Source: an uncultured Sulfitobacter sp. (GTDB lineage Bacteria; Pseudomonadota; Alphaproteobacteria; Rhodobacterales; Rhodobacteraceae). Taken from it: a stretch of DNA of 35,285 nucleotides. A program made the position numbers and the translations under genes. The notes below the pieces were generated by a model that saw nothing but the letters and a program-made list of their open reading frames with translations, had not been told where the DNA came from and made no database searches. This document shows, piece after piece, positions 1 through 9,156 of this stretch. The stretch is from contig CALKXT010000113.1 in NCBI GenBank assembly GCA_938003685.1, positions 1 to 35,285 on the forward strand, written 5' to 3'. The first letter of the stretch is position 1. Each line of letters begins with the position of its first letter.

Positions 1-1974
1 GATCAGCGTCGTCAGGCCAACGGCATATCGCTTGATGAACCAGAACAGCCCGCAGCCCATTGCAGTCGTGTGCCGCAGGATGATTGCGTTGTGTCCGCCG
101 CGATCTATCCGCCAATTGGTGTCACCCGCGTCGGTAATTCACAGGAATGGTATCTGGGGCCAGAGGTGCCCAACCCCCTGCCCCTTGACCCCGGATCATA
201 CCGCGATGGTAAGGGGCATTTGAAACGCGAGGCCGCACGGTTTCGGGTATATGGGCTAAATGCCCTGGGCGATCCAATCTGCGAACTCAACCTTGATGAT
301 CCAGATGTTGAAATCGAATGGAAAGTCGAGATCGAGAACCAAAAGGCAAGCTGGTATGAATTCCAACTCGCGCTAGATATTCCCGAAGCCGCCGCCGTTC
401 CCCCCTCAATGATGCGCAACCCAACGGTCGCAGATCGCGACAGCCTGCGGATTGCACCAAAACGCCAAAAGATCAAAGGCAAGGATGTGCATGGCAAGCA
501 ACATCACTTTGATGATGGGAAATTCCTTGGTGGAAAAGTGCCATTGGGCGAGGTCCGCACGGATGAGGCAGGGCGATTGATTGTGCTTGGTGGCTTTGGC
601 CTGTCGCAAGCCCCTGAAGGTGGCAGGGCAATCACCTTTGCCAATAACGACGGCTGGCATGACGACACCTCCGATGGTCCCGTCCATGCAAACGTCCGCT
701 ACAAAGGTGTCGCGTTGCGCGTCAAACCCGCATGGGTGATCTGCGCCCCGCCCAACTATGGCCCTGCACAGAAGTCAGTGCGTACCATGTGGGATTTGAT
801 GCGTGATGTGGCGTGTGACAACAAGATGTTACCGCGTCCAGAGCGCCCCAGCTTTACCCACGATATCCTGCCGATCTTTGAACGAATGACGACCCTGCAA
901 TGGGTCAACGCAGGCTTTGCCGCTGGCTTTGGTCATGACGGAGTGTTCAATTTCTCAACCCCTGAATGGCGCGCACGATTGGCCGATCCTAGCCCGGCAA
1001 TGATGGAAAAGCGGCGTGTGCTGGCGAATACATTCCGTAGTTTTGCGGTAGATAGCAATTCCCCAGTGCCTTGGCCGTGGCTTTATGGTGATGCCATGAA
1101 TGTCCCTCCAGCGGATACACCGCGCCAACATTCTGTGCTATCGGGCCTACAAATGTGGTCACTGGAACAATGGGTACTTGGCAATTTTGATGCCGATTAT
1201 GACCCAGATTACGAACCGCCGCGCCATATTGATGACGTACCAGCAGCCAAACAGCCTGATACATTGACCCGCGCGGCAATGGAGTTCTGCCTCGCGGATG
1301 CCTTCCATCCGGGCTGCGAAATCACCTGGCCGATGCGTCAGGCGGGCATGTATATGGAGGCATTCCGCGTTAAACATCGCCACAAACACAACCCAGAGGC
1401 CAGCTATGGTGGTCAATTGGGGGACGATTGGTCCCTGCCTGATGGTCCGATCAATGGCGGCCAAGCGCCGGGTGGTTTGACCCGTTGGATGGCTGTGCCA
1501 TGGCAAACCGATACATCATCCTGCCGCTCTGGTTATACGCCGACATATGACCCTTATGCGCCGACTTTTTGGCCTGCGCGGGTGCCCAATGAGGTGATGT
1601 CAGAAACGGAATATGAAACCGTCATGGATGACAGCCTACCCCTTAGCCAGCGTTTGCAGGCCTTTGCAAATCGCGCCAATTGGCTGGAACCATTGGGATT
1701 GGACAAATCCTATACCCATCAGATCAACCACATGATCCATCACTTTGATCAGATGGGCGTGGTTGAGGTACGCCCCGGACCTGCAGGTGATCCGAACTTT
1801 CCTGCGACGATGCAGGTGTCAGACGCCAAAGTGAAAGCCTGGGAAACAGCCAATGAACCGGACGCTGTTGCCGCAATGAAAATGGGCGACAAATTGCAGG
1901 CGGCAAGCATTGGTTTGGGCGAAGGAATCACTGACCTGTCCAGCATCGCCAAGGTCAATCGGTTCAAATACTGA
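1..1974 (+). CDS. LodA/GoxA-family CTQ-dependent amino acid oxidase (5' end open)
   Basis: This resembles LodA (lysine epsilon-oxidase) and GoxA (glycine oxidase), oxidases that carry a cysteine tryptophylquinone cofactor made from their own Cys and Trp side chains. They release H2O2 and ammonia. The N-terminal family signature IYPPIGVTRVGNS begins near base 106. The candidate CTQ Cys is in PWQTDTSSCRSGY (codon 1522-1524), with the Asp of QTD four residues before it. The candidate Trp is in FWPARVPN (codon 1570-1572). The frame is open back to base 1. A GTG at 70 would give 634 aa, but it has no clear ribosome site, so the true start may lie outside the window. The LodB-like gene follows after 13 bases, the usual LodAB pairing. 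The substrate cannot be told from sequence: LodA and GoxA relatives differ in substrate. Confidence 0.85.
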   Translation, partial: DQRRQANGISLDEPEQPAAHCSRVPQDDCVVSAAIYPPIGVTRVGNSQEWYLGPEVPNPLPLDPGSYRDGKGHLKREAARFRVYGLNALGDPICELNLDDPDVEIEWKVEIENQKASWYEFQLALDIPEAAAVPPSMMRNPTVADRDSLRIAPKRQKIKGKDVHGKQHHFDDGKFLGGKVPLGEVRTDEAGRLIVLGGFGLSQAPEGGRAITFANNDGWHDDTSDGPVHANVRYKGVALRVKPAWVICAPPNYGPAQKSVRTMWDLMRDVACDNKMLPRPERPSFTHDILPIFERMTTLQWVNAGFAAGFGHDGVFNFSTPEWRARLADPSPAMMEKRRVLANTFRSFAVDSNSPVPWPWLYGDAMNVPPADTPRQHSVLSGLQMWSLEQWVLGNFDADYDPDYEPPRHIDDVPAAKQPDTLTRAAMEFCLADAFHPGCEITWPMRQAGMYMEAFRVKHRHKHNPEASYGGQLGDDWSLPDGPINGGQAPGGLTRWMAVPWQTDTSSCRSGYTPTYDPYAPTFWPARVPNEVMSETEYETVMDDSLPLSQRLQAFANRANWLEPLGLDKSYTHQINHMIHHFDQMGVVEVRPGPAGDPNFPATMQVSDAKVKAWETANEPDAVAAMKMGDKLQAASIGLGEGITDLSSIAKVNRFKY

Positions 1975-1987
1975 AAAATGACCTCAC

Positions 1988-3043
1988 GTGTATGACGTTG
2001 CAATATTAGGCGCAGGCCCTGCTGGGGCTGCGCTGGCCTGTGCTTTGGCCGCGCGCTGGCGTGTGGTTTTGATCGATAAACAGCCAACACCACCCCCCCG
2101 CATCGGTGAAGCATTGGTGCCCGCAGCAGGTCGAATTTTGCGCGACTTGGGGTTAAGCGACGCATTTAACGCATTACAATCCGCACCCTACGTTGCCAAC
2201 CGCAGTCTATGGGGCAGTGACGTCGAAGAATACCGCGACTTCATCTCAGATCCCGAAGGATGCGGATGGCATATCGACCGCGTTGCGTTTGAAACGATGT
2301 TGCGAGATCAGGCCAAGATACGCGGGGCGGCCTGTCTGTTTCATCATCCATTGCAGGATGTGACACCCGGCTGGCATCTTCAATGTGGCGATGTGACCAA
2401 CATCAAGGCGCGCTATGTCGTGGATGCCACAGGGCGTTCTGCTGTGTTGGCACGGCGATTGGGCGCGCAACGCATTGCTGCTGACAAAATGGTGGCACGG
2501 TGGTGTCGCATCAATTCGGTGCCAGAAACCAAGACCGGGATCAGCAGTGTGATCACGACACCAAAGGGATGGTGGTATCATATTGCGGCTAAATCAGTGG
2601 ATGCCTGCGAAAGCACCGTCGCCTTTCACAGCATTGCCAACCTATTGCCACAGGGCGACAAAGCGGCGTTTTTATCAGCTGCACAGGATCATCTGGGGCT
2701 CTCTGAAATACTGCAAGGTGCAAAGCCTCTTACTGAACCAACGACCACCGCAGCGCATACCGCGCGTCTTGACCACATCAGTGGGGAAAATTGGATCGCT
2801 ATCGGGGATGCTGGTATTTGCTTTGACCCCATCGCCTCACGCGGATTGTTTCATGCGCTGTATTCCGCATATGTCGGGGCGGCCTTGATTGATGAACGGC
2901 TGCGAGGTCAAGGGGATTGCTTTGCGCTATATGACGGCGAAATGTCGCGAATATACGAGACCTACCTTGATCATCGCCGCGCTGTTTACAATGCGGAGCA
3001 GAGATGGCCACGTTCAGATTTTTGGCGCAAAGCACATGCATAA
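1988..3043 (+). CDS. LodB/GoxB-like FAD-dependent oxidoreductase (CTQ maturation)
   Basis: This is a 351 aa flavoprotein of the tryptophan-halogenase/geranylgeranyl-reductase-like fold. The dinucleotide-binding motif GAGPAG is at residues 8-13, immediately after the start. The second FAD motif, GDAGICFDPIASRGL, lies near residue 275. In LodAB and GoxAB systems the flavoprotein partner is required to form the tryptophylquinone in the oxidase. The gene follows the oxidase gene closely on the same strand, which supports that role here. The start is GTG at 1988; the ATG at 1978 is in another frame and stops after five codons. Length agrees with LodB-type proteins of about 350-370 aa. A generic halogenase-like oxidoreductase is the alternative, but the neighbour makes LodB most likely. 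Confidence 0.8.
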   Translation: MYDVAILGAGPAGAALACALAARWRVVLIDKQPTPPPRIGEALVPAAGRILRDLGLSDAFNALQSAPYVANRSLWGSDVEEYRDFISDPEGCGWHIDRVAFETMLRDQAKIRGAACLFHHPLQDVTPGWHLQCGDVTNIKARYVVDATGRSAVLARRLGAQRIAADKMVARWCRINSVPETKTGISSVITTPKGWWYHIAAKSVDACESTVAFHSIANLLPQGDKAAFLSAAQDHLGLSEILQGAKPLTEPTTTAAHTARLDHISGENWIAIGDAGICFDPIASRGLFHALYSAYVGAALIDERLRGQGDCFALYDGEMSRIYETYLDHRRAVYNAEQRWPRSDFWRKAHA

Positions 3044-3363: not shown

Positions 3364-3564
3364 ATGGCTGATCAAAAAGGCTGGCCGCCAATTATACTTT
3401 ATGGTGTGATTATCAACGAAGCAATCCAAAGCGGCGACAAAGAAGTGATGCACGCAGTTGCGAAAGTCAGTAAATTTATGATGGATCGTGCTGGTCGTGA
3501 AGGCGGCGAGATGATTGATGACTGGAAAAGCGCCCACGACGACCTGATCAAAGCTCTCAACTGA
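3364..3564 (+). CDS. Small DUF1843-like peptide 1 (Y-X10-GDK), putative maturase substrate
   Basis: A 66 aa peptide and the first of four paralogs in the cassette. It shares LYGVIINEAI, then GDK, with Tyr13 followed by ten residues and Gly24-Asp25-Lys26. A variable linker leads to Trp54-Lys55 and a SAH-like tail. DUF1843 peptides known to me carry Y-X(10)-GDL and occur beside radical SAM enzymes; here Leu is replaced by Lys. There is no Cys and no signal peptide. The start is supported by GGGGA five bases upstream. It lies before the radical SAM gene, whereas the other three paralogs lie after it. The function is unknown; being a substrate of the maturase is inferred from context. Confidence 0.8.
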   Translation: MADQKGWPPIILYGVIINEAIQSGDKEVMHAVAKVSKFMMDRAGREGGEMIDDWKSAHDDLIKALN

Positions 3565-3589
3565 CATCCATATCGTTTGAAGTTTTTGA

Positions 3590-3639
3590 ACGGCCCTTTT
3601 TCCTTATCTAGTGTTTTTATATTTCAATCAGAGGGCCGT
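3590..3639 (+). promoter_or_regulatory. Long-range inverted repeat between peptide 1 and the maturase gene
   Basis: ACGGCCCT at 3590-3597 is matched by its exact reverse complement AGGGCCGT at 3632-3639, with an AT-rich 34-base loop between. It sits after the peptide 1 stop and before the maturase start. It could act as a partial terminator, attenuator or processing site that sets the ratio of peptide to enzyme. A regulatory role is inferred. Confidence 0.4.
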
Positions 3640-3670
3640 CTACAGATTATTATATATTCGGAATCCAATT

Positions 3671-4849
3671 ATGAATGATATGTCTGCTCCACGTATTTTG
3701 ACAAACCAAGATCAAAAGGATTGTGTTCCGGTCTATGTGGTTTGGGAAACGACGCTCGCGTGTAATCTTAAATGTGGTCATTGTGGATCACGTGCAGGGG
3801 ACCGCCGTAGCGATGAACTAGATACCGAAGAAGCTTTTGATCTTATTGATCAAATGGCCGCCCTTGGTACGCGTGAAATAACCATCATTGGAGGCGAGGC
3901 ATTTTTGCGCAAGGACTGGATAAGACTAATTGAACGCATAACAAGTCACGGTATTTTATGCACCATGCAAACTGGTGCATATGGGTTGAATGAAAAGATG
4001 TTGCGGCGCGCGCAAGATGCAGGGTTAGGCGGTATTGGTGTTTCAGTTGATGGGCTTGAGGATGATCATGACAAAATTCGAGGCCGCAAAGGATCATATC
4101 AGGCCTGTCTAAATGCGCTGCGTGTTGCAAAAGAATTAGGTATGGTGACAAGTGCCAACACCCAAATCAATGCAATTAGCTATCAATACCTACGCGAAGT
4201 GTTTGACGCTGTCGCAGCGGTGGGCATTTCGCATTGGCAGTTGCAGTGGACCGTGGCGATGGGCAATGCCGCTGACAATGACGACGTGTTGTTGCAACCC
4301 TTCCTTGTCAAACCTGTAATGGATGAAGTTGCCGAGATATTCAAACATGCGCAAACTATGGGCGTTACCGTGCGCCCCGGCAATAATATTGGCTATTTTG
4401 GCAAATACGAAGTGCTGTGGCGTGGTGGTCAGGGTGGTGGACATTACGCGGGCTGTCCTGCGGGTCACAACGCCATCGGTATTGAGGCGGATGGCACAAT
4501 CAAAGCCTGCCCATCCCTGCCTAAGGAACGCTATTCTGGTGGCAATATCCGTGATCTGACGCTTGAGGACATGTGGCACAATTCGCCCGAACTGGCGTTT
4601 AACCGGGATCGTGGCACCGATAAACTTTGGGGTCATTGCAAGGATTGCATGTACTCAGATGTTTGTCGCGGCGGATGTACCTGGACCGCAGATTCACTGT
4701 TTCGCAAGCCCGGCAACAATCCCTACTGCTATTACCGCGTCACCGAATTAGAAAAACGTGGCATCCGCGAACGCGTGCGCAAGATCGAAGAGGCCCCAGA
4801 TACGCCTTTTGCCGTTGGCTTATTTGAAATTATCGAAGAGGCAATCTGA
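3671..4849 (+). CDS. Radical SAM/SPASM peptide maturase (Y-X10-GDL-associated type)
   Basis: A 392 aa radical SAM enzyme. The SAM-binding [4Fe-4S] motif CX3CX2C is Cys31, Cys35 and Cys38 (CNLKCGHC). The C-terminal SPASM domain is complete: Cys262, Cys280, Cys323, Cys326, Cys332, Cys336 and Cys353, in the CX2CX5CX3C arrangement that binds auxiliary clusters. SPASM enzymes commonly modify ribosomal peptides by C-C, C-S or C-O bond formation. The neighbouring Y-X10-GDK peptides point to the Y-X(10)-GDL-associated maturase family (family name recalled, not searched). The start is placed at ATG 3671, because a GTG at 3611 lies inside the intercistronic repeat and adds residues outside the fold. 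The stop overlaps the next start by one base (TGATG). The reaction is unknown. Confidence 0.88.
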   Translation: MNDMSAPRILTNQDQKDCVPVYVVWETTLACNLKCGHCGSRAGDRRSDELDTEEAFDLIDQMAALGTREITIIGGEAFLRKDWIRLIERITSHGILCTMQTGAYGLNEKMLRRAQDAGLGGIGVSVDGLEDDHDKIRGRKGSYQACLNALRVAKELGMVTSANTQINAISYQYLREVFDAVAAVGISHWQLQWTVAMGNAADNDDVLLQPFLVKPVMDEVAEIFKHAQTMGVTVRPGNNIGYFGKYEVLWRGGQGGGHYAGCPAGHNAIGIEADGTIKACPSLPKERYSGGNIRDLTLEDMWHNSPELAFNRDRGTDKLWGHCKDCMYSDVCRGGCTWTADSLFRKPGNNPYCYYRVTELEKRGIRERVRKIEEAPDTPFAVGLFEIIEEAI

Positions 4850-5067
4850 TGGATGTTAAAGCAATGCCAAAGGGCGAGCCATCGGTTGCCCTGCCCCTAT
4901 GCCTGAATTGTGCGGAATATATCCGTGCAACGGATGTGCCTTGTCCGCATTGCACCCAAGACCCTACCAAACCGGGCGGACGTTATAAGGAAGATGGGTT
5001 TTATGCGCGCGATGCGTTGGAAAACCTGTTGGACGCAATGGAGCGTGCGGCCACCAAACAGACTTAA
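4849..5067 (+). CDS. Four-Cys zinc-ribbon mini-protein of the peptide cassette
   Basis: A 72 aa protein whose start overlaps the maturase stop by one base, so the two are probably translationally coupled. It has two CX2C knuckles, Cys18/Cys21 (CLNC) and Cys32/Cys35 (CPHC), ten residues apart: the layout of a rubredoxin-like or zinc-ribbon metal site. A charged helical tail follows (DALENLLDAMERAA). There is no signal peptide or membrane segment. It may be an accessory for the maturase, such as a peptide-recognition or electron-transfer partner. That is inference: I do not recognise a named family. Peptide gene 2 begins 40 bases downstream. Confidence 0.75.
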   Translation: MDVKAMPKGEPSVALPLCLNCAEYIRATDVPCPHCTQDPTKPGGRYKEDGFYARDALENLLDAMERAATKQT

Positions 5068-5107
5068 TATTCCGATTACCCCCACCTCTCAGATCAAGGA
5101 GAAACTG

Positions 5108-5293
5108 ATGAAAAATATTCTTCCCCCATATGGCGTCATCCTGCGCGATGCGATTGCGACCGGCGACAAAGATTTGATGCAAGCTTTTGTCAAATATAGC
5201 GATTTCATGATGAAACAGGACTTGAATGTTTCTGATAAAAACCGTGAGAGCTGGAAGGCCGCCCATGCAGAGTTGGTTTCGGCATCTGGTTAA
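5108..5293 (+). CDS. Small DUF1843-like peptide 2 (Y-X10-GDK)
   Basis: A 61 aa paralog of peptides 1, 3 and 4. It has Tyr8, ten residues, then Gly19-Asp20-Lys21, and the C-terminal Trp49-Lys50 followed by AAH. The start at 5108 is fixed by AAGGAG six bases upstream; a longer reading from 4910 merely overlaps the zinc-ribbon gene. The middle segment (KQDLNVSDKNRES) differs from the other copies while the N-terminal half and the WK motif are kept. There is no Cys and no export signal. It lies in the same direction as the maturase with short gaps, consistent with one transcript. Confidence 0.8.
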   Translation: MKNILPPYGVILRDAIATGDKDLMQAFVKYSDFMMKQDLNVSDKNRESWKAAHAELVSASG

Positions 5294-5335
5294 ATCGCTT
5301 TAATTTTACCTCCCTAAATTTTGAAAGGAAAAGAC

Positions 5336-5518
5336 ATGGCAGAAGCACGATTATTGTACGGCGTCATCATTCGCGAAGCGATGGACGGGAATGATAAGGA
5401 ATTGATGCAGGCTATTTCCAAAGTCAGTACCTTCATGTTGTCCCGCTCTGAAGGAAACGACTCCGATTTGGAAGACTGGAAGAAAGCGGATCACGATTTG
5501 AAATCTGCGCTGGGATAA
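5336..5518 (+). CDS. Small DUF1843-like peptide 3 (Y-X10-NDK)
   Basis: A 60 aa paralog with Tyr8, ten residues, then Asn19-Asp20-Lys21, so Gly of the GDK motif has become Asn. Trp48-Lys49 is followed by KADHDL, which breaks the AAH seen in its sisters. The start at ATG 5336 has GAAAGGAAA six bases upstream; a TTG at 5321 overlaps that ribosome site and is rejected. Spacing and strand match co-transcription with peptides 2 and 4. Confidence 0.8.
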   Translation: MAEARLLYGVIIREAMDGNDKELMQAISKVSTFMLSRSEGNDSDLEDWKKADHDLKSALG

Positions 5519-5534
5519 AGTGTACATTTCTAAA

Positions 5535-5555
5535 GCGCCCAAATTTTCAGGGCGC
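5535..5555 (+). promoter_or_regulatory. Hairpin between peptide genes 3 and 4
   Basis: GCGCCC at 5535-5540 pairs with GGGCGC at 5550-5555 around a nine-base AT-rich loop. No U tract follows, so it is more likely an intercistronic stem (mRNA stability or partial termination) than a full terminator. Confidence 0.4.
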
Positions 5556-5581
5556 ATACATAAAGTATTTGAAAGGAGAAT

Positions 5582-5779
5582 ATGATGTCAGACGGAAATA
5601 AAGGCGGTCCAGTTATTGTCCCCCTGTACGGCGTGCCGATCCGCGCAGTGATGGACAGCGGTGACAAAGAACTCATGAAAGCCATGTTGAAAGTGAGCGA
5701 TCATTTGATTGGACGCGCTGAGGGCGGCATTGACGATTGGAAAGCAGCGCACGAGGCGCTTGGCAAGGCCGCTGGATAA
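5582..5779 (+). CDS. Small DUF1843-like peptide 4 (Y-X10-GDK)
   Basis: A 65 aa paralog and the last of the cassette. Tyr16 is followed by ten residues and Gly27-Asp28-Lys29, with Trp53-Lys54-Ala-Ala-His near the end. It has a longer Gly-rich N-terminus than peptides 2 and 3 and a shorter middle, so the Tyr-Trp distance is 37 rather than 40-41. Two ATGs are possible (5582 and 5585). AAAGGAG ends at 5578, and the second ATG has the six-base spacing used by its sisters, so 5585 may be the real start. Confidence 0.78.
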   Translation: MMSDGNKGGPVIVPLYGVPIRAVMDSGDKELMKAMLKVSDHLIGRAEGGIDDWKAAHEALGKAAG

Positions 5780-5791
5780 GTGATGTCTGCG

Positions 5792-5814
5792 AGATCAGCG
5801 TTTTCAGCTGATCT
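5792..5814. terminator. Stem-loop between convergent peptide cassette and nirV
   Basis: AGATCAGC (5792-5799) and GCTGATCT (5807-5814) form a perfect eight-base stem with a seven-base loop containing TTTT. It sits between two operons that end towards each other and could serve both strands. The U tract is short. Confidence 0.55.
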
Positions 5815-5832
5815 TGTAGGTTCCCGAAATGG

Positions 5833-6573
5833 TCAGCTGTCTGAATTGTCAGAGACGAGGCGCACCCCAAGATGGGCGGGTGGTGACCCTACTGCGCAGC
5901 CGCCACGTGCGGGATCGCGGACAAGATAGGACATAACCGCTTCATGCTCTCCGCCCATGATGAAAGCGGGGCAGCGCCCCTTATCAGACGCCTTACCTTG
6001 TCCACTGGCACCAGCATAGCAATCTTGGGTCCATTCCCAGACATTGCCGTCCAAATCCTCAATACCTGCTGAAGTTGCCCTAAACGCGCCGCTTGGCCGC
6101 AGCGCCCTACCTGAGCGGTTTGTATCCGTTAGATAGGTAGAGGCCCATGTGAGTGCAGGGTCCGTAAAGATTGGATCGGGTTCTTCTGGCATGACCTCAG
6201 CGGACAGTTCACGCCATTCTGCGGCTGTCGGCAAACGCCATTCTATCTTGTCATGGGCATTCACCCAGTCGATATACTGCATTGCATCTTGATAACTCAA
6301 TCCAGTCGCTGGATAATCTGTATCCCTGTTAGGCAAAGACAAATCCAAAGCGCAGCTACCCGCCACATAACAGGCTTGCCACTGGTTGATTGTCACCTCA
6401 CGGGTTTGCACCTTTAATCGTTGCCCATCTTGCAACGTAACAGTTTTAGCCTTCGATTTTATCGCAGAAACAGCCTCGGGGCTGCGCAGCATTTGCACAG
6501 CCCCGAGGCCCAAGGCTAGCACACAGGCCAAAACGACTAGGGTCTTGGTTTGGATCGCCTTGGTAAGTTTCAT
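5833..6573 (-). CDS. nirV: NirV-like FGE/SUMF-domain protein
   Basis: A 246 aa protein with an N-terminal hydrophobic segment (residues about 9-27), then a formylglycine-generating-enzyme/SUMF-type fold. Landmarks are EVTINQWQACY, WRLPTAAEWREL, DLDGNVWEWTQDC and a final RGGC...LGVRLV. NirV proteins are FGE relatives encoded directly after nirK, as in Rhodobacter sphaeroides 2.4.3, and their biochemical role is unsettled. The start at 6573 lies 19 bases after the nirK stop; a longer reading to 6621 would overlap nirK. The signal-like segment suggests a periplasmic location beside NirK. True FGE activity is unlikely to be assigned from sequence alone, because the catalytic Cys pair is not clearly preserved. 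Confidence 0.82.
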   Translation of the reverse strand: MKLTKAIQTKTLVVLACVLALGLGAVQMLRSPEAVSAIKSKAKTVTLQDGQRLKVQTREVTINQWQACYVAGSCALDLSLPNRDTDYPATGLSYQDAMQYIDWVNAHDKIEWRLPTAAEWRELSAEVMPEEPDPIFTDPALTWASTYLTDTNRSGRALRPSGAFRATSAGIEDLDGNVWEWTQDCYAGASGQGKASDKGRCPAFIMGGEHEAVMSYLVRDPARGGCAVGSPPAHLGVRLVSDNSDS

Positions 6574-6592
6574 GTTCCGATGCCCCGCGCTA

Positions 6593-7810
6593 TTAGGTTT
6601 CGAATTCACGCGGCGCGACAACTTGCTCCATCAGCGCGTTGTCCCATTCGCCCTCGACCACAAAATGCGCCGTCGCACCCAGCAAGGCCGCCTCGATCAG
6701 ATTGTGGTTCACATAGGCATACACGCCCGGTTGCTCAAAGGTATACATGGACGCCATCGCAGTACCGCCACGTACAAACCATGTCTCAAGCCCGGTCAAA
6801 GGTGGCTCACTAAAGGATGTTTCCCAGACATAGTTACCATGCCCGCCAATAAGGTGGGGCCGCGAGTCACGGTTGGCTTGATTGTGGATCATCAACACTG
6901 TTTCACCGACGGCGAACTTCATCGCATTTTCGCCGGTGATCGCCCCAACAGCACCGTTAAACACACTATGTGTTGGTGTCAGGGTGCGCATCGCATCTAT
7001 GCTATCTGAGTAATCGTCACCCGCCGCCTCGTAGGTTTTGTATTCACCGCTTTCATCCTTGGGCAGGTAATAATCCTGTTCACCAATATAAGCGATTTTG
7101 TCATAAGACAGTAGATTACCGTCCTTGTCTTTCAGGCCGTCGCGCGGCAGTACCATCACCGCACCGTTCATCCCGTGACATACGTGGTACGGGATCATCG
7201 CCCCACCCGGTGCACAGTGGTAGGTAAAACAACCCGGCTTGGTCGCTTTCCAGCGCAGCACACATTCTTCGCCCGGATACACATGCGTGAGGCCACCACC
7301 GCCCAGCGCACCCGTCGAGGCGTGAAAGTCGATGTTATGTTCCATCTGGCTATCGACAGGATTGCGCAGCGTTAACTCGACCATGTCGCCTTCGTGTACG
7401 ATGATCAGAGGGCCGGGCACCGAGCCGTTGTAGGTCAATGCCCAAACGGAAGCGCCTGTGTCTTCATCCACCACCATCAGGCGTTCGGTGGTGTCCATGG
7501 TGATCTCAACGATCTTGGGGCCGCCTGTTGCGACCTGTTCATGCACCGGTGCATAGGGCGGTGCGACCATTTCTTGTTTGACGCGCGTGTAGCCCGATAG
7601 ATCAGCAGGTTTTGCGGTGCTGTCTTTGGCCTGCTCACCTGCAGCTTTATACAGATTGGCTGAGGTTGTATTCGCGATACTCAACTTGGGCGAACGCGGT
7701 GTCGCCAATGCAGCCGTACCCGTCATGGCAGCCGCACCCGCGAGGACCGATCCGCGCAACACGTTACGGCGGTTGGTTTTCATAAGTCCGGGGTTGATAA
7801 ATTTTGTCAT
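6593..7810 (-). CDS. nirK: Copper-containing nitrite reductase NirK
   Basis: A 405 aa periplasmic enzyme that reduces nitrite to NO. A twin-arginine export signal is present (RRNVLRGS from residue 14, then [13 protein letters not shown]). Two cupredoxin domains follow. By alignment from memory, type 1 copper ligands are His158, Cys199, His209 and Met214. Type 2 copper ligands include His163 and His198, with a third His in the [11 protein letters not shown] segment. The catalytic Asp161 lies in HNIDFH, and the catalytic His in RPHLIGGHG is present. The gene follows pseudoazurin by 56 bases with no obvious terminator, so the three genes probably form one unit. AAGGAAC precedes the chosen ATG at 7810. 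Confidence 0.96.
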
Positions 7811-7866
7811 CTTAGATGTTCCTTATTGCTAAATATAAGCGCTCAAAGCACTGGGTTTTTTTGGTT

Positions 7867-8298
7867 TCAAAGATCACCAAGGGCCGCTTCAAAATTCTTT
7901 TTGGCTTTTTTGGGGATGCGTCCTTCTAGGAATTCATCCGGTGCCGCGGTGGTGTCACCAACGGCGATGACCATCACCATGCCCATCGCATAATGCGGTT
8001 TGCACTTAATGCCATAAAAGCCGGGTTCAGTCAGCGTGACTTCAATCTCTTCGTTGATCTTACCTTTGAAAGGGGTCGCACCATCAGGTGCCATGCCGTC
8101 AACAGATTCTGCATTATGGCTTTTGTCAGTGGCGATGAATTTTACTGTATCCCCAGGCGCGATGCGTAGGGACGCAGGTTCAAAGATCATCCGACCGCCT
8201 TCACCTTTGTTCAGCATCTTTATCTCAAAGGTCTCAGCTGCTGCGGCCCCACCAAGGGCGATGAGAAGAGCGGCGGATGTCACTAGGGTACGAAACAT
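7867..8298 (-). CDS. Pseudoazurin, periplasmic blue copper electron donor
   Basis: A 143 aa precursor with a Sec signal peptide (MFRTLVTSAALLIALGGAAAA) and a type 1 copper fold. The ligands fit pseudoazurin spacing exactly: His61, Cys99, His102 and Met107. Pseudoazurin passes electrons from the cytochrome bc1 branch to NirK. It is the first gene of the minus-strand unit pseudoazurin-nirK-nirV. A TTG-N8-CAA box centred 70 bases upstream of its start would place transcription start near 8327, leaving a leader of about 29 bases. Confidence 0.93.
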   Translation of the reverse strand: MFRTLVTSAALLIALGGAAAAETFEIKMLNKGEGGRMIFEPASLRIAPGDTVKFIATDKSHNAESVDGMAPDGATPFKGKINEEIEVTLTEPGFYGIKCKPHYAMGMVMVIAVGDTTAAPDEFLEGRIPKKAKKNFEAALGDL

Positions 8299-8361
8299 GT
8301 CATTTCCTTTCGAATTGATCGTTGTTCACACCCCGCATAGTCCGCCCGGTTGGAGAGAACT

Positions 8362-8375
8362 TTGTTCCAGAGCAA
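8362..8375 (-). promoter_or_regulatory. Crp/Fnr (NnrR/Dnr-type) box for the pseudoazurin-nirK-nirV unit
   Basis: TTGTTCCAGAGCAA fits TTG-N8-CAA. Counting 41.5 bases downstream on the minus strand puts the start site at about 8327 and the -10 hexamer at 8339-8334, which reads TATGCG. It differs from the box at 9420-9433 at only two positions. Confidence 0.6.
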
Positions 8376-8466
8376 CCTTTTCGAAAGTACCCACGGGATG
8401 CATGATCGCTGGTGGTTTGGCTGCAATACCTTTAGCGTTAACGAATTGGGGTATTGGGAATTCGCT

Positions 8467-9156
8467 GTGCATAGACTTGACGAAAGCTTGCTAACGCCCT
8501 TGCCGCCTTTTTCTTCGTTAGAACGAGCGCAAATCAGAGATATCCTAGATCAGGCAACCAGTAGCCGCTTTGACGCTGGCGTATCAATTTTTGAAGAAGG
8601 CTTAACAGCAGAGCGGTTCTTCCTGCTGTTGGATGGCACAATCCGGGTGGTCAAGATCACCGCTGATGGCGAACAGGTGACCTCTTTGCACATACCTGCG
8701 GGCCAGTTGTTTGGCGTGGCCCAAGCATTTGGGCGCGATACATATCCAGCGACAGCTATCTCAGCATCCGAAGTGTTGATACTGTGCTGGCCGTCATCAC
8801 TGTGGCAACGCTTTGTTGCGCAGTATCCGGGGTTTGCGACGCAGACGTACAAATCCATCGGGGACCGTATGGTCGAAATGAATACCCGTATCGTTGAAAT
8901 GTCGACACAGCATGTCCAGCAACGCATTGCACGCGCCTTGTTACGTCTGGTGAAACAGTCTGGCCAAAGAACACCAGAAGGCATCGAAATAAACTTTCCA
9001 ATCACACGTCAAGATGTATCAGAGATGACGGGCACAACCCTGCACACTGTAAGTCGATTGCTGAGTGCATGGGAAAAGGATGGATTGGTCAGCAGCAAAC
9101 GCAAAAAGATTATCATCTGTGACCCCCATCGTCTGGCAGTCTTGGGAGAGGCGTGA
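8467..9156 (+). CDS. Crp/Fnr-family regulator, NnrR/Dnr-like
   Basis: A 229 aa protein with an N-terminal cyclic-nucleotide-like beta-roll (FDAGVSIFEEGLTAERFFLLLDG), a long dimer helix and a C-terminal winged helix-turn-helix (ITRQDVSEMTGTTLHTVSRLL). It lacks the N-terminal Cys cluster that binds the oxygen-sensing [4Fe-4S] of true FNR, which suits the NO-responsive NnrR/Dnr groups. The start is placed at GTG 8467 with GGGAA six bases upstream; a longer reading from 8350 would run through the regulatory box. It is divergent from pseudoazurin and lies next to nnrS, so control of this island is likely. The exact subgroup is inferred. Confidence 0.88.
   Translation: MHRLDESLLTPLPPFSSLERAQIRDILDQATSSRFDAGVSIFEEGLTAERFFLLLDGTIRVVKITADGEQVTSLHIPAGQLFGVAQAFGRDTYPATAISASEVLILCWPSSLWQRFVAQYPGFATQTYKSIGDRMVEMNTRIVEMSTQHVQQRIARALLRLVKQSGQRTPEGIEINFPITRQDVSEMTGTTLHTVSRLLSAWEKDGLVSSKRKKIIICDPHRLAVLGEA

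Follow-up and report, generated by a model that had tools for sequence, protein, structure and literature searches.

The window analysed here is the 35,285-nucleotide contig CALKXT010000113.1 (C113) of an uncultured Sulfitobacter assembly, which spans 3.4 Mb and is 84.6% complete. Near its start lie six genes, all on the + strand between positions 3364 and 5779, which encode a small peptide, a radical S-adenosylmethionine (SAM)/SPASM enzyme, a zinc-ribbon protein and three further small peptides (Table 1). This cassette is an offshoot of the known, little-studied GDL/DUF1843 family with a split zinc-ribbon layout. The initial annotation had described the zinc-ribbon protein as a coupled CX2C...CX2C mini-protein; the start of its gene lies within the stop codon of the enzyme gene (TGATG at 4847-4851). 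Purine-rich, Shine-Dalgarno-like stretches are seen by eye upstream of peptides 2-4.

Table 1. Genes of the cassette and two genes of a related locus.
Feature	Location	Position	Strand	Remarks
Peptide 1	Window	3364..3564	+	66 aa; IIL-Y-GVIINEAIQS-GDK; predicted substrate; counterpart in Amylibacter locus L012
Radical SAM/SPASM maturase	Window	3671..4849	+	392 aa; without the C-terminal zinc-ribbon domain common in relatives
Zinc-ribbon protein	Window	4849..5067	+	72 aa; CX2C-X10-CX2C (CLNC...CPHC) plus C-terminal stretch
Peptide 2	Window	5108..5293	+	61 aa; LPP-Y-GVILRDAIAT-GDK; predicted substrate
Peptide 3	Window	5336..5518	+	60 aa; RLL-Y-GVIIREAMDG-NDK; predicted substrate
Peptide 4	Window	5582..5779	+	65 aa; VPL-Y-GVPIRAVMDS-GDK; predicted substrate
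Papain-like peptidase gene	G197 (L020)	107-1150	+	
IS110 transposase gene	G197 (L020)	5475-6596	-	

The small proteins had been proposed as four paralogs of 60-66 amino acids sharing a Y-X10-(G/N)DK motif, and their coordinates, strand and motifs proved correct. Three of them carry Y-X10-GDK, and peptide 3 carries NDK. The Trp-Lys pair ascribed to them is likewise present in all four (DWK, SWK, DWK and DWK), in the C-terminal third of each peptide rather than at the C-terminal end. A metagenome-assembled genome of Amylibacter (OX044354.1, locus L012) holds all six genes in the same order, and alignment of its four peptides with those of the window shows all of YGV, the D of GD and the Trp to be invariant. 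The four window peptides are homologous, share an invariant Y-G-V...D register and each correspond to one Amylibacter peptide. The DUF1843 model PF08898 scores 17.3 bits for peptide 1, 18.8 for peptide 2 and 16.0 for peptide 4, all below its gathering cut-off of 23.3, and peptide 3 has no Pfam match, PF08898 included; at E<=1 the model matches 6 of the 8 window and Amylibacter peptides (best 5.1e-4). An AlphaFold2 model of peptide 3, based on eight sequences, contains three helices (residues 8-17, 21-37 and 43-59; mean predicted local distance difference test score, pLDDT, 83.3); the Tyr stands where helix 1 starts and NDK at the turn ahead of helix 2, and pLDDT averages only 61 over the first ten residues. 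A fold search with this model gave no match at E<=0.001.

The enzymes of the window and of Amylibacter are 91% identical. The ratio of nonsynonymous to synonymous substitution rates (dN/dS) between the two loci is 0.10-0.13 for four genes; for the enzyme and peptide 2, saturation at synonymous sites leaves no ratio to give. The cassette proteins are conserved though synonymous sites are near or at saturation. The flanking genes differ, being GoxA/GoxB-like, FGE-like, multicopper oxidase and azurin-family genes in the window and, by eye, other genes in Amylibacter. Searched with a profile of the eight peptides, the 3.4 Mb assembly yields four copies at E<=1, all in the cassette (E 1.8e-27 to 3.5e-33, matches that arise by construction, the window peptides being rows of the profile); with its matches confined in this way, the cassette exceeds chance. 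The six genes are a real, self-contained unit, among which no exporter or protease is seen by eye. The upstream GoxA/GoxB-like pair was considered as part of this unit and rejected, since no such gene is seen by eye among the large open reading frames in 13 kb of the Amylibacter locus.

The enzyme had been read as a maturase with complete CX3CX2C and seven-cysteine SPASM motifs. Counted by eye in the translation, the former is CNLKCGHC and the latter comprises C-X17-C, CX2CX5CX3C and a final C; PF04055 (90.4 bits) and PF13186 (34.5 bits) both score above cut-off. The best-matching families are TIGR03913, the GDL motif peptide-associated maturases (501.7 bits over profile positions 5-391 of 477), and TIGR04103, the nif11-class maturase 3 (453.6 bits, E 5e-136), and the third-best family reaches only 155 bits. 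Relatives at 44-54% identity are found in six plasmid records, namely three of Azospirillum (annotated as GDL maturase), one each of Aureibacter and Tropicibacter (radical SAM protein) and one of Nostoc (nif11-class maturase 3). Among seven relatives scanned, the enzyme of Nostoc sp. C057 exceeds the TIGR04103 cut-off of 725 (853.1 bits) and that of Azospirillum B510 exceeds the TIGR03913 cut-off of 591.75 (760.6 bits), while the other five stay below both and score best with TIGR03913 (Aureibacter 534.9, G1212 509.9, Amylibacter 503.8, G197 433.7 and Tropicibacter 430.9, the last a near tie with 427.6 for TIGR04103). Enzymes from genomes G515, G918 and G972 lie above the TIGR03913 cut-off, and those of G716 (497.0 bits) and G1116 (499.3 bits) below it. 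In G1116 (L026) the maturase frame holds one in-frame TAG, so that the gene may be broken or the assembly wrong. The window enzyme and every relative examined except that of Nostoc are treated here as a GDL-type set of 14 enzymes, including the near tie of Tropicibacter. The window enzyme is a divergent relative of the GDL-motif maturases (TIGR03913) with complete radical SAM and SPASM motifs. A detached zinc ribbon was rejected as the whole cause of its TIGR03913 score lying below cut-off, because the enzymes of Aureibacter and G197, with fused zinc ribbons, also fall below.

The zinc-ribbon protein was initially regarded as an undescribed partner, a view that does not survive comparison with the relatives. 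It matches TIGR03913 at positions 425-471 (E 7.7e-5, 21.2 bits as a separate protein). Across the 14 GDL-type enzymes the zinc ribbon is C-terminally fused in 8 (three Azospirillum, Aureibacter, G515, G918, G972 and G197), encoded by its own gene, directly after that of the enzyme, in 5 (window, Amylibacter, G716, G1116 and G1212) and N-terminal in Tropicibacter, with a spacing of 14 rather than X10. A profile of the eight fused domains gives 28.3 bits with the window protein (E 6.9e-8 at a nominal 1000 sequences), 60.8 with G716, 54.6 with G1116 and 30.2 with Amylibacter, and a weak 13.4 with the Tropicibacter N-terminus; G1212 was left out of this test. The zinc-ribbon protein is thus a homolog of the C-terminal domain of the TIGR03913 family, encoded apart, and its candidacy as a new partner was rejected because it matches this part of TIGR03913 and the profile made solely of fused domains. 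On the enzyme tree the split state takes 3 changes, with which a single origin may nevertheless be compatible.

Enzyme and peptides belong together. A motif peptide gene adjoins the enzyme in 13 of the 14 GDL-type loci, and the earlier proposal of a peptide-modification cassette related to the DUF1843/GDL system is borne out. The exception is Tropicibacter, where a Y/F/W-X10-G/N-D scan over 13 kb gave no match taken for a gene, with a pattern that would miss variants such as the GEV of G716. Across 325 genomes of the family, matches to the peptide profile are confined to the window's own genome and G1212, both times next to a maturase, and peptide homologs lacking a radical SAM partner were not seen; the profile used is narrow, and the presence of G197, whose peptide is more distant, in this sample is not evident. 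Additionally, an Azospirillum peptide matches 4 plasmid records, all 4 of which hold the enzyme. PF08898 at E<=0.001 matched 5 of 398 genomes of the phylum, 3 of them above cut-off, and in G515 and G716 the matching peptide lies next to a maturase. The other three, G505 (L035), G536 (L036) and G514 (L037), have partial DUF1843-like matches (profile 13/14-50, without the Tyr part) in open frames of 750-774 amino acids. One of these leans against the pairing: G505 reaches 27.2 bits, above cut-off, in a 753-amino-acid frame (profile 13-50) and has no TIGR03913 match. The absence of TIGR03913 from all three assumes that the same 398 genomes were drawn in both searches, as the labels suggest, and their matches are taken as a different context.

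The wider peptide set comprises 29 peptides from 12 operons and one from G1212, that is, 30 peptides from 13 operons. Collection of 16 was independent of the motif (11 annotated as DUF1843 in Azospirillum and Aureibacter, 4 PF08898 matches in G515 and G716, and G1212 by profile), and 14 were noticed via the motif, so that their register follows in part from how they were chosen; around the enzymes of G918 and G972 coverage extended to only 1.5 kb either way, and a stand-alone peptide like that of G515 may be missed there. All 30 have the Tyr, 29 have G or N at +11 (S in G1212) and 28 have D at +12. The third motif residue is L in 16, K in 7, V in 4, P in 2 and I in 1, so the GDK variant, once considered new, uses one of several residues. 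Tyr is preceded by L (16), P (7), M (4) or V (3) and followed by G (17), A (8), M (3), D (1) or H (1). All nine peptides of the window, Amylibacter and G1212 read X-Y-G-V, with a Trp in the C-terminal third.

The reaction, left unknown by the initial annotation, can be narrowed by these sites. TIGR04103, taken here to be the same as IPR026482, presumably includes the tyramine-excising splicease PlpX among the nif11-class maturases 3. PlpX (class IPR026482) acts with PlpY to excise tyramine from Xaa-Tyr-Gly, leaving an alpha-keto amide (PMC11002830), and the natural PlpXY sites are MYG and LYG, in a source that mentions 27 other characterised or 939 predicted systems alongside PlpXY (PMC10533398). 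PlpY has been described both as a truncated RiPP recognition element (RRE) (PMC11002830) and as too small for the RRE fold (PMC12710340). The sites in the window are LYG, PYG, LYG and LYG, and X-Y-G is likewise present in all four Amylibacter peptides and in the one of G1212. In favour of a kinship with such systems, the Nostoc locus is laid out in a similar way, with a precursor ending in ALYGLPPELF, the radical SAM gene and then an overlapping gene for a 71-amino-acid protein. Because X-Y-G is present at all four sites and the enzyme is 50% identical over 376 amino acids to that of Nostoc C057, a nif11-class maturase 3, it is predicted, with a probability of about 0.6, that the enzyme excises tyramine at the X-Y-G of each peptide, giving alpha-keto-beta-amino residues.

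On this prediction, the cassette would modify four small proteins by radical chemistry, each at a single tyrosine. The substrate would be a three-helix mini-protein lacking a recognised leader, with Tyr at the start of helix 1 and G/N-D-K at the turn before helix 2, and the zinc-ribbon protein would dock on the enzyme in the manner of the fused domain and may help to keep the folded substrate in place. Least supported is the last step, a possible action of the product within the cell, say as a reactive ketoamide or protease inhibitor; an intracellular role is a guess drawn from a cassette in which neither exporter nor protease is seen by eye. Spliced beta-residues in general are said to bring about protease inhibition (PMC10373908). 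A bolder version of this proposal, tentative and itself rather doubtful, is that of a leaderless tyramine-splicing branch in which folded three-helix substrates would be recognised via their own C-terminal body (the GDK turn and the invariant Trp). In such a branch a zinc-ribbon module able to detach, separate here and fused at either end elsewhere, would present four substrates to one splicease, each ending with a reactive ketoamide at its helix start.

Several observations weigh against tyramine excision. The TIGR03913 and TIGR04103 scores of the window enzyme both fall below cut-off, and a tree of 15 enzyme rows, mostly unresolved outside close groups, does not place the window branch among the GDL and Nostoc rows. 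No Nif11, NHLP-type or other leader family is found in the window peptides at E<=1 (Pfam, NCBIfam). The profile of fused zinc-ribbon domains shows no similarity to the small partner protein of Nostoc, which has no Cys. Furthermore, Gly after Tyr is not kept family-wide, with X-Y-A, -M, -D or -H in other GDL-type operons, which suggests that the chemistry may differ between branches.

The chief alternative is that the same invariant Tyr is modified by another radical SAM/SPASM chemistry, such as the Tyr cross-linking or decarboxylation of PqqE or MftC, and that X-Y-G is coincidental to this branch. Tyr persists in every peptide while the next residue varies, although 14 of the 30 were gathered via the motif; the enzyme is matched by the maturase models for mycofactocin (110.9 bits) and PQQ (93.9 bits), and in the PDB it is closest by sequence to SkfB (69.8 bits) and PqqE (64.6 bits); and the Trp, also invariant in the window branch, would be a possible second site. 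However, the TIGR04103 score is four to five times those of the mycofactocin and PQQ models, and X-Y-G is the site of PlpXY (PMC11002830); this alternative is given distinctly lower odds than tyramine excision.

It is improbable that the peptides mainly form a structural assembly to which modification is secondary. A DUF1842-DUF1843 protein was chosen for structural work since its repeated paralogs per operon hinted at self-assembly (PMC10994174), and the peptide 3 model is a three-helix domain, but that protein is likely a monomer with no higher-order assembly according to the same source, and motif peptides sit beside the maturase in nearly every GDL-type locus. Comparably poor odds are given to the zinc-ribbon protein as an independent regulator or metallochaperone rather than a maturase part. 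Such independence would suit a separate gene in five loci (window, L012, G716, G1116 and G1212) and a model of the protein too poor for use (mean pLDDT 54.5), and against it stand the homologous domain fused to the enzyme in eight relatives and the match to a profile built without the window protein. Tyramine excision is the preferred reading of the cassette.

The enzyme is rare in the genomes searched. At E<=1e-80 it matches 3 of 390 genomes of the order, its own among them, and TIGR03913 matches 3 of 398 of the phylum; at E<=1e-60 the counts are 1 of 62 in the genus (its own genome), 3 of 198 in the family of G515 and 2 of 149 in that of G716. Plasmid records gave no match for peptide 2 or for the cassette DNA, from which it follows that such searches fail to reach distant relatives. 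The GC content of the cassette is 0.483 against a mean of 0.532 (standard deviation 0.024) over 76 blocks of equal length, 4 of which are as low; this is compatible with horizontal gain and no proof of it. A viral origin was rejected, as viral contigs contain no relative of the peptides or the enzyme and a search of phage records with the enzyme gave nothing at E<=1e-20. Misassignment of the contig was also rejected, because the tetranucleotides of both window halves correlate at 0.96-0.97 with 7 of 8 assembly stretches; the eighth, L049, gives 0.92-0.93 and is odd against all stretches. The cassette alone, a short sequence set against no size-matched control, gives 0.78-0.85.

Upstream in the window (70-3043) lie a GoxA-like cysteine tryptophylquinone (CTQ) amino-acid oxidase (NF038173, 407 bits, cut-off 750) and a GoxB/LodB-like flavoprotein; for the latter, 61 other genomes of the genus gave no match at E<=1e-60. 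Directly downstream (5833-9156) are genes for an FGE-sulfatase-domain protein, a two-domain multicopper oxidase (NirK-like by eye), a plastocyanin/azurin-family protein and a Crp-family regulator. Around the related cassettes, the Azospirillum plasmids L028, L031 and L032 (3 of 3) have genes for a solute-binding protein and a polyamine ABC transporter after the GDL cassette, followed in B510 by agmatine deiminase; a link between these neighbours and an amine by-product is only a thought. The region on the Tropicibacter oceani plasmid NZ_CP124618.1 (L030) holds two further radical SAM-annotated proteins, a trypsin-like and an M23 peptidase. In G197 (L020) a papain-like cysteine peptidase family protein is encoded just upstream of the X-Y-G peptide and the fused maturase; the contig, 7.6 kb long, also encodes an IS110-family transposase. 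The GDL-type cassette on the Aureibacter tunicatorum plasmid (L029, Bacteroidota) includes three DUF1843 peptides, and its maturase is immediately followed by a class I methyltransferase.

Should splicing of X-Y-G occur in this branch, DUF1843-like mini-proteins would count as ribosomal beta-amino-acid proteins, and a leaderless splicease would become available for labelling proteins. With the zinc ribbon encoded separately, the role of that domain could be tested by adding or omitting one protein. Related genes have surfaced in other contexts. In Chromobacterium, a co-expressed DUF1842/DUF1843/GDL-maturase cluster is under quorum sensing, and its DUF1842/DUF1843 proteins are called functionally uncharacterised, with an XYE-type system assumed (PMC12114271). 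A stationary-phase study lists genes of the DUF1842/DUF1843/GDL-maturase type as up (PMC12322963), and the structural study of the DUF1842-DUF1843 protein solved the main fragment and left the terminal domain unresolved (PMC10994174). The excerpts of the literature found on DUF1842/DUF1843, GDL maturases and spliceases hold no mention of a GDK variant or a separate zinc ribbon, and those on GDL/DUF1843 systems show no reaction.

The closest known systems are the GDL cassettes, annotated in more than one phylum. The name of TIGR03913 itself refers to a GDL motif, and its partner peptide presumably has the spacing Y-X10-GDL. Plasmid AZO_p3 of Azospirillum lipoferum 4B resembles the window in an enzyme 53% identical and a homologous zinc-ribbon domain. 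The annotated Azospirillum and Aureibacter cassettes likewise place two or three small Y-X10-G/N-D peptides beside one enzyme, which reduces the novelty once seen in the fourfold expansion. The window differs from the Azospirillum system in its separate zinc ribbon, in GDK or NDK as against GDL or NDV, in four peptides flanking the enzyme on both sides and in scores below the TIGR03913 and PF08898 cut-offs. The DUF1842-DUF1843 fusions of G515, G918 and G972 (domains scanned for G515) also have a DUF1843 part with a Y-X10 motif, GDL in this case, by a maturase. Unlike in the window, the peptide there is fused to DUF1842, the 6 fusion proteins read X-Y-A, the zinc ribbon is fused to the enzyme, and the maturases score above the TIGR03913 cut-off. 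The PlpXY spliceotide system shares the X-Y-G sites with the window, the likeness of the enzyme being drawn via its Nostoc C057 member, whose locus likewise has a gene for a small partner that overlaps the enzyme gene at its 3' end. In contrast to PlpXY-type systems, the window has peptides in which no Nif11 or NHLP leader is recognised and a zinc-ribbon partner with no detectable similarity to that of Nostoc.

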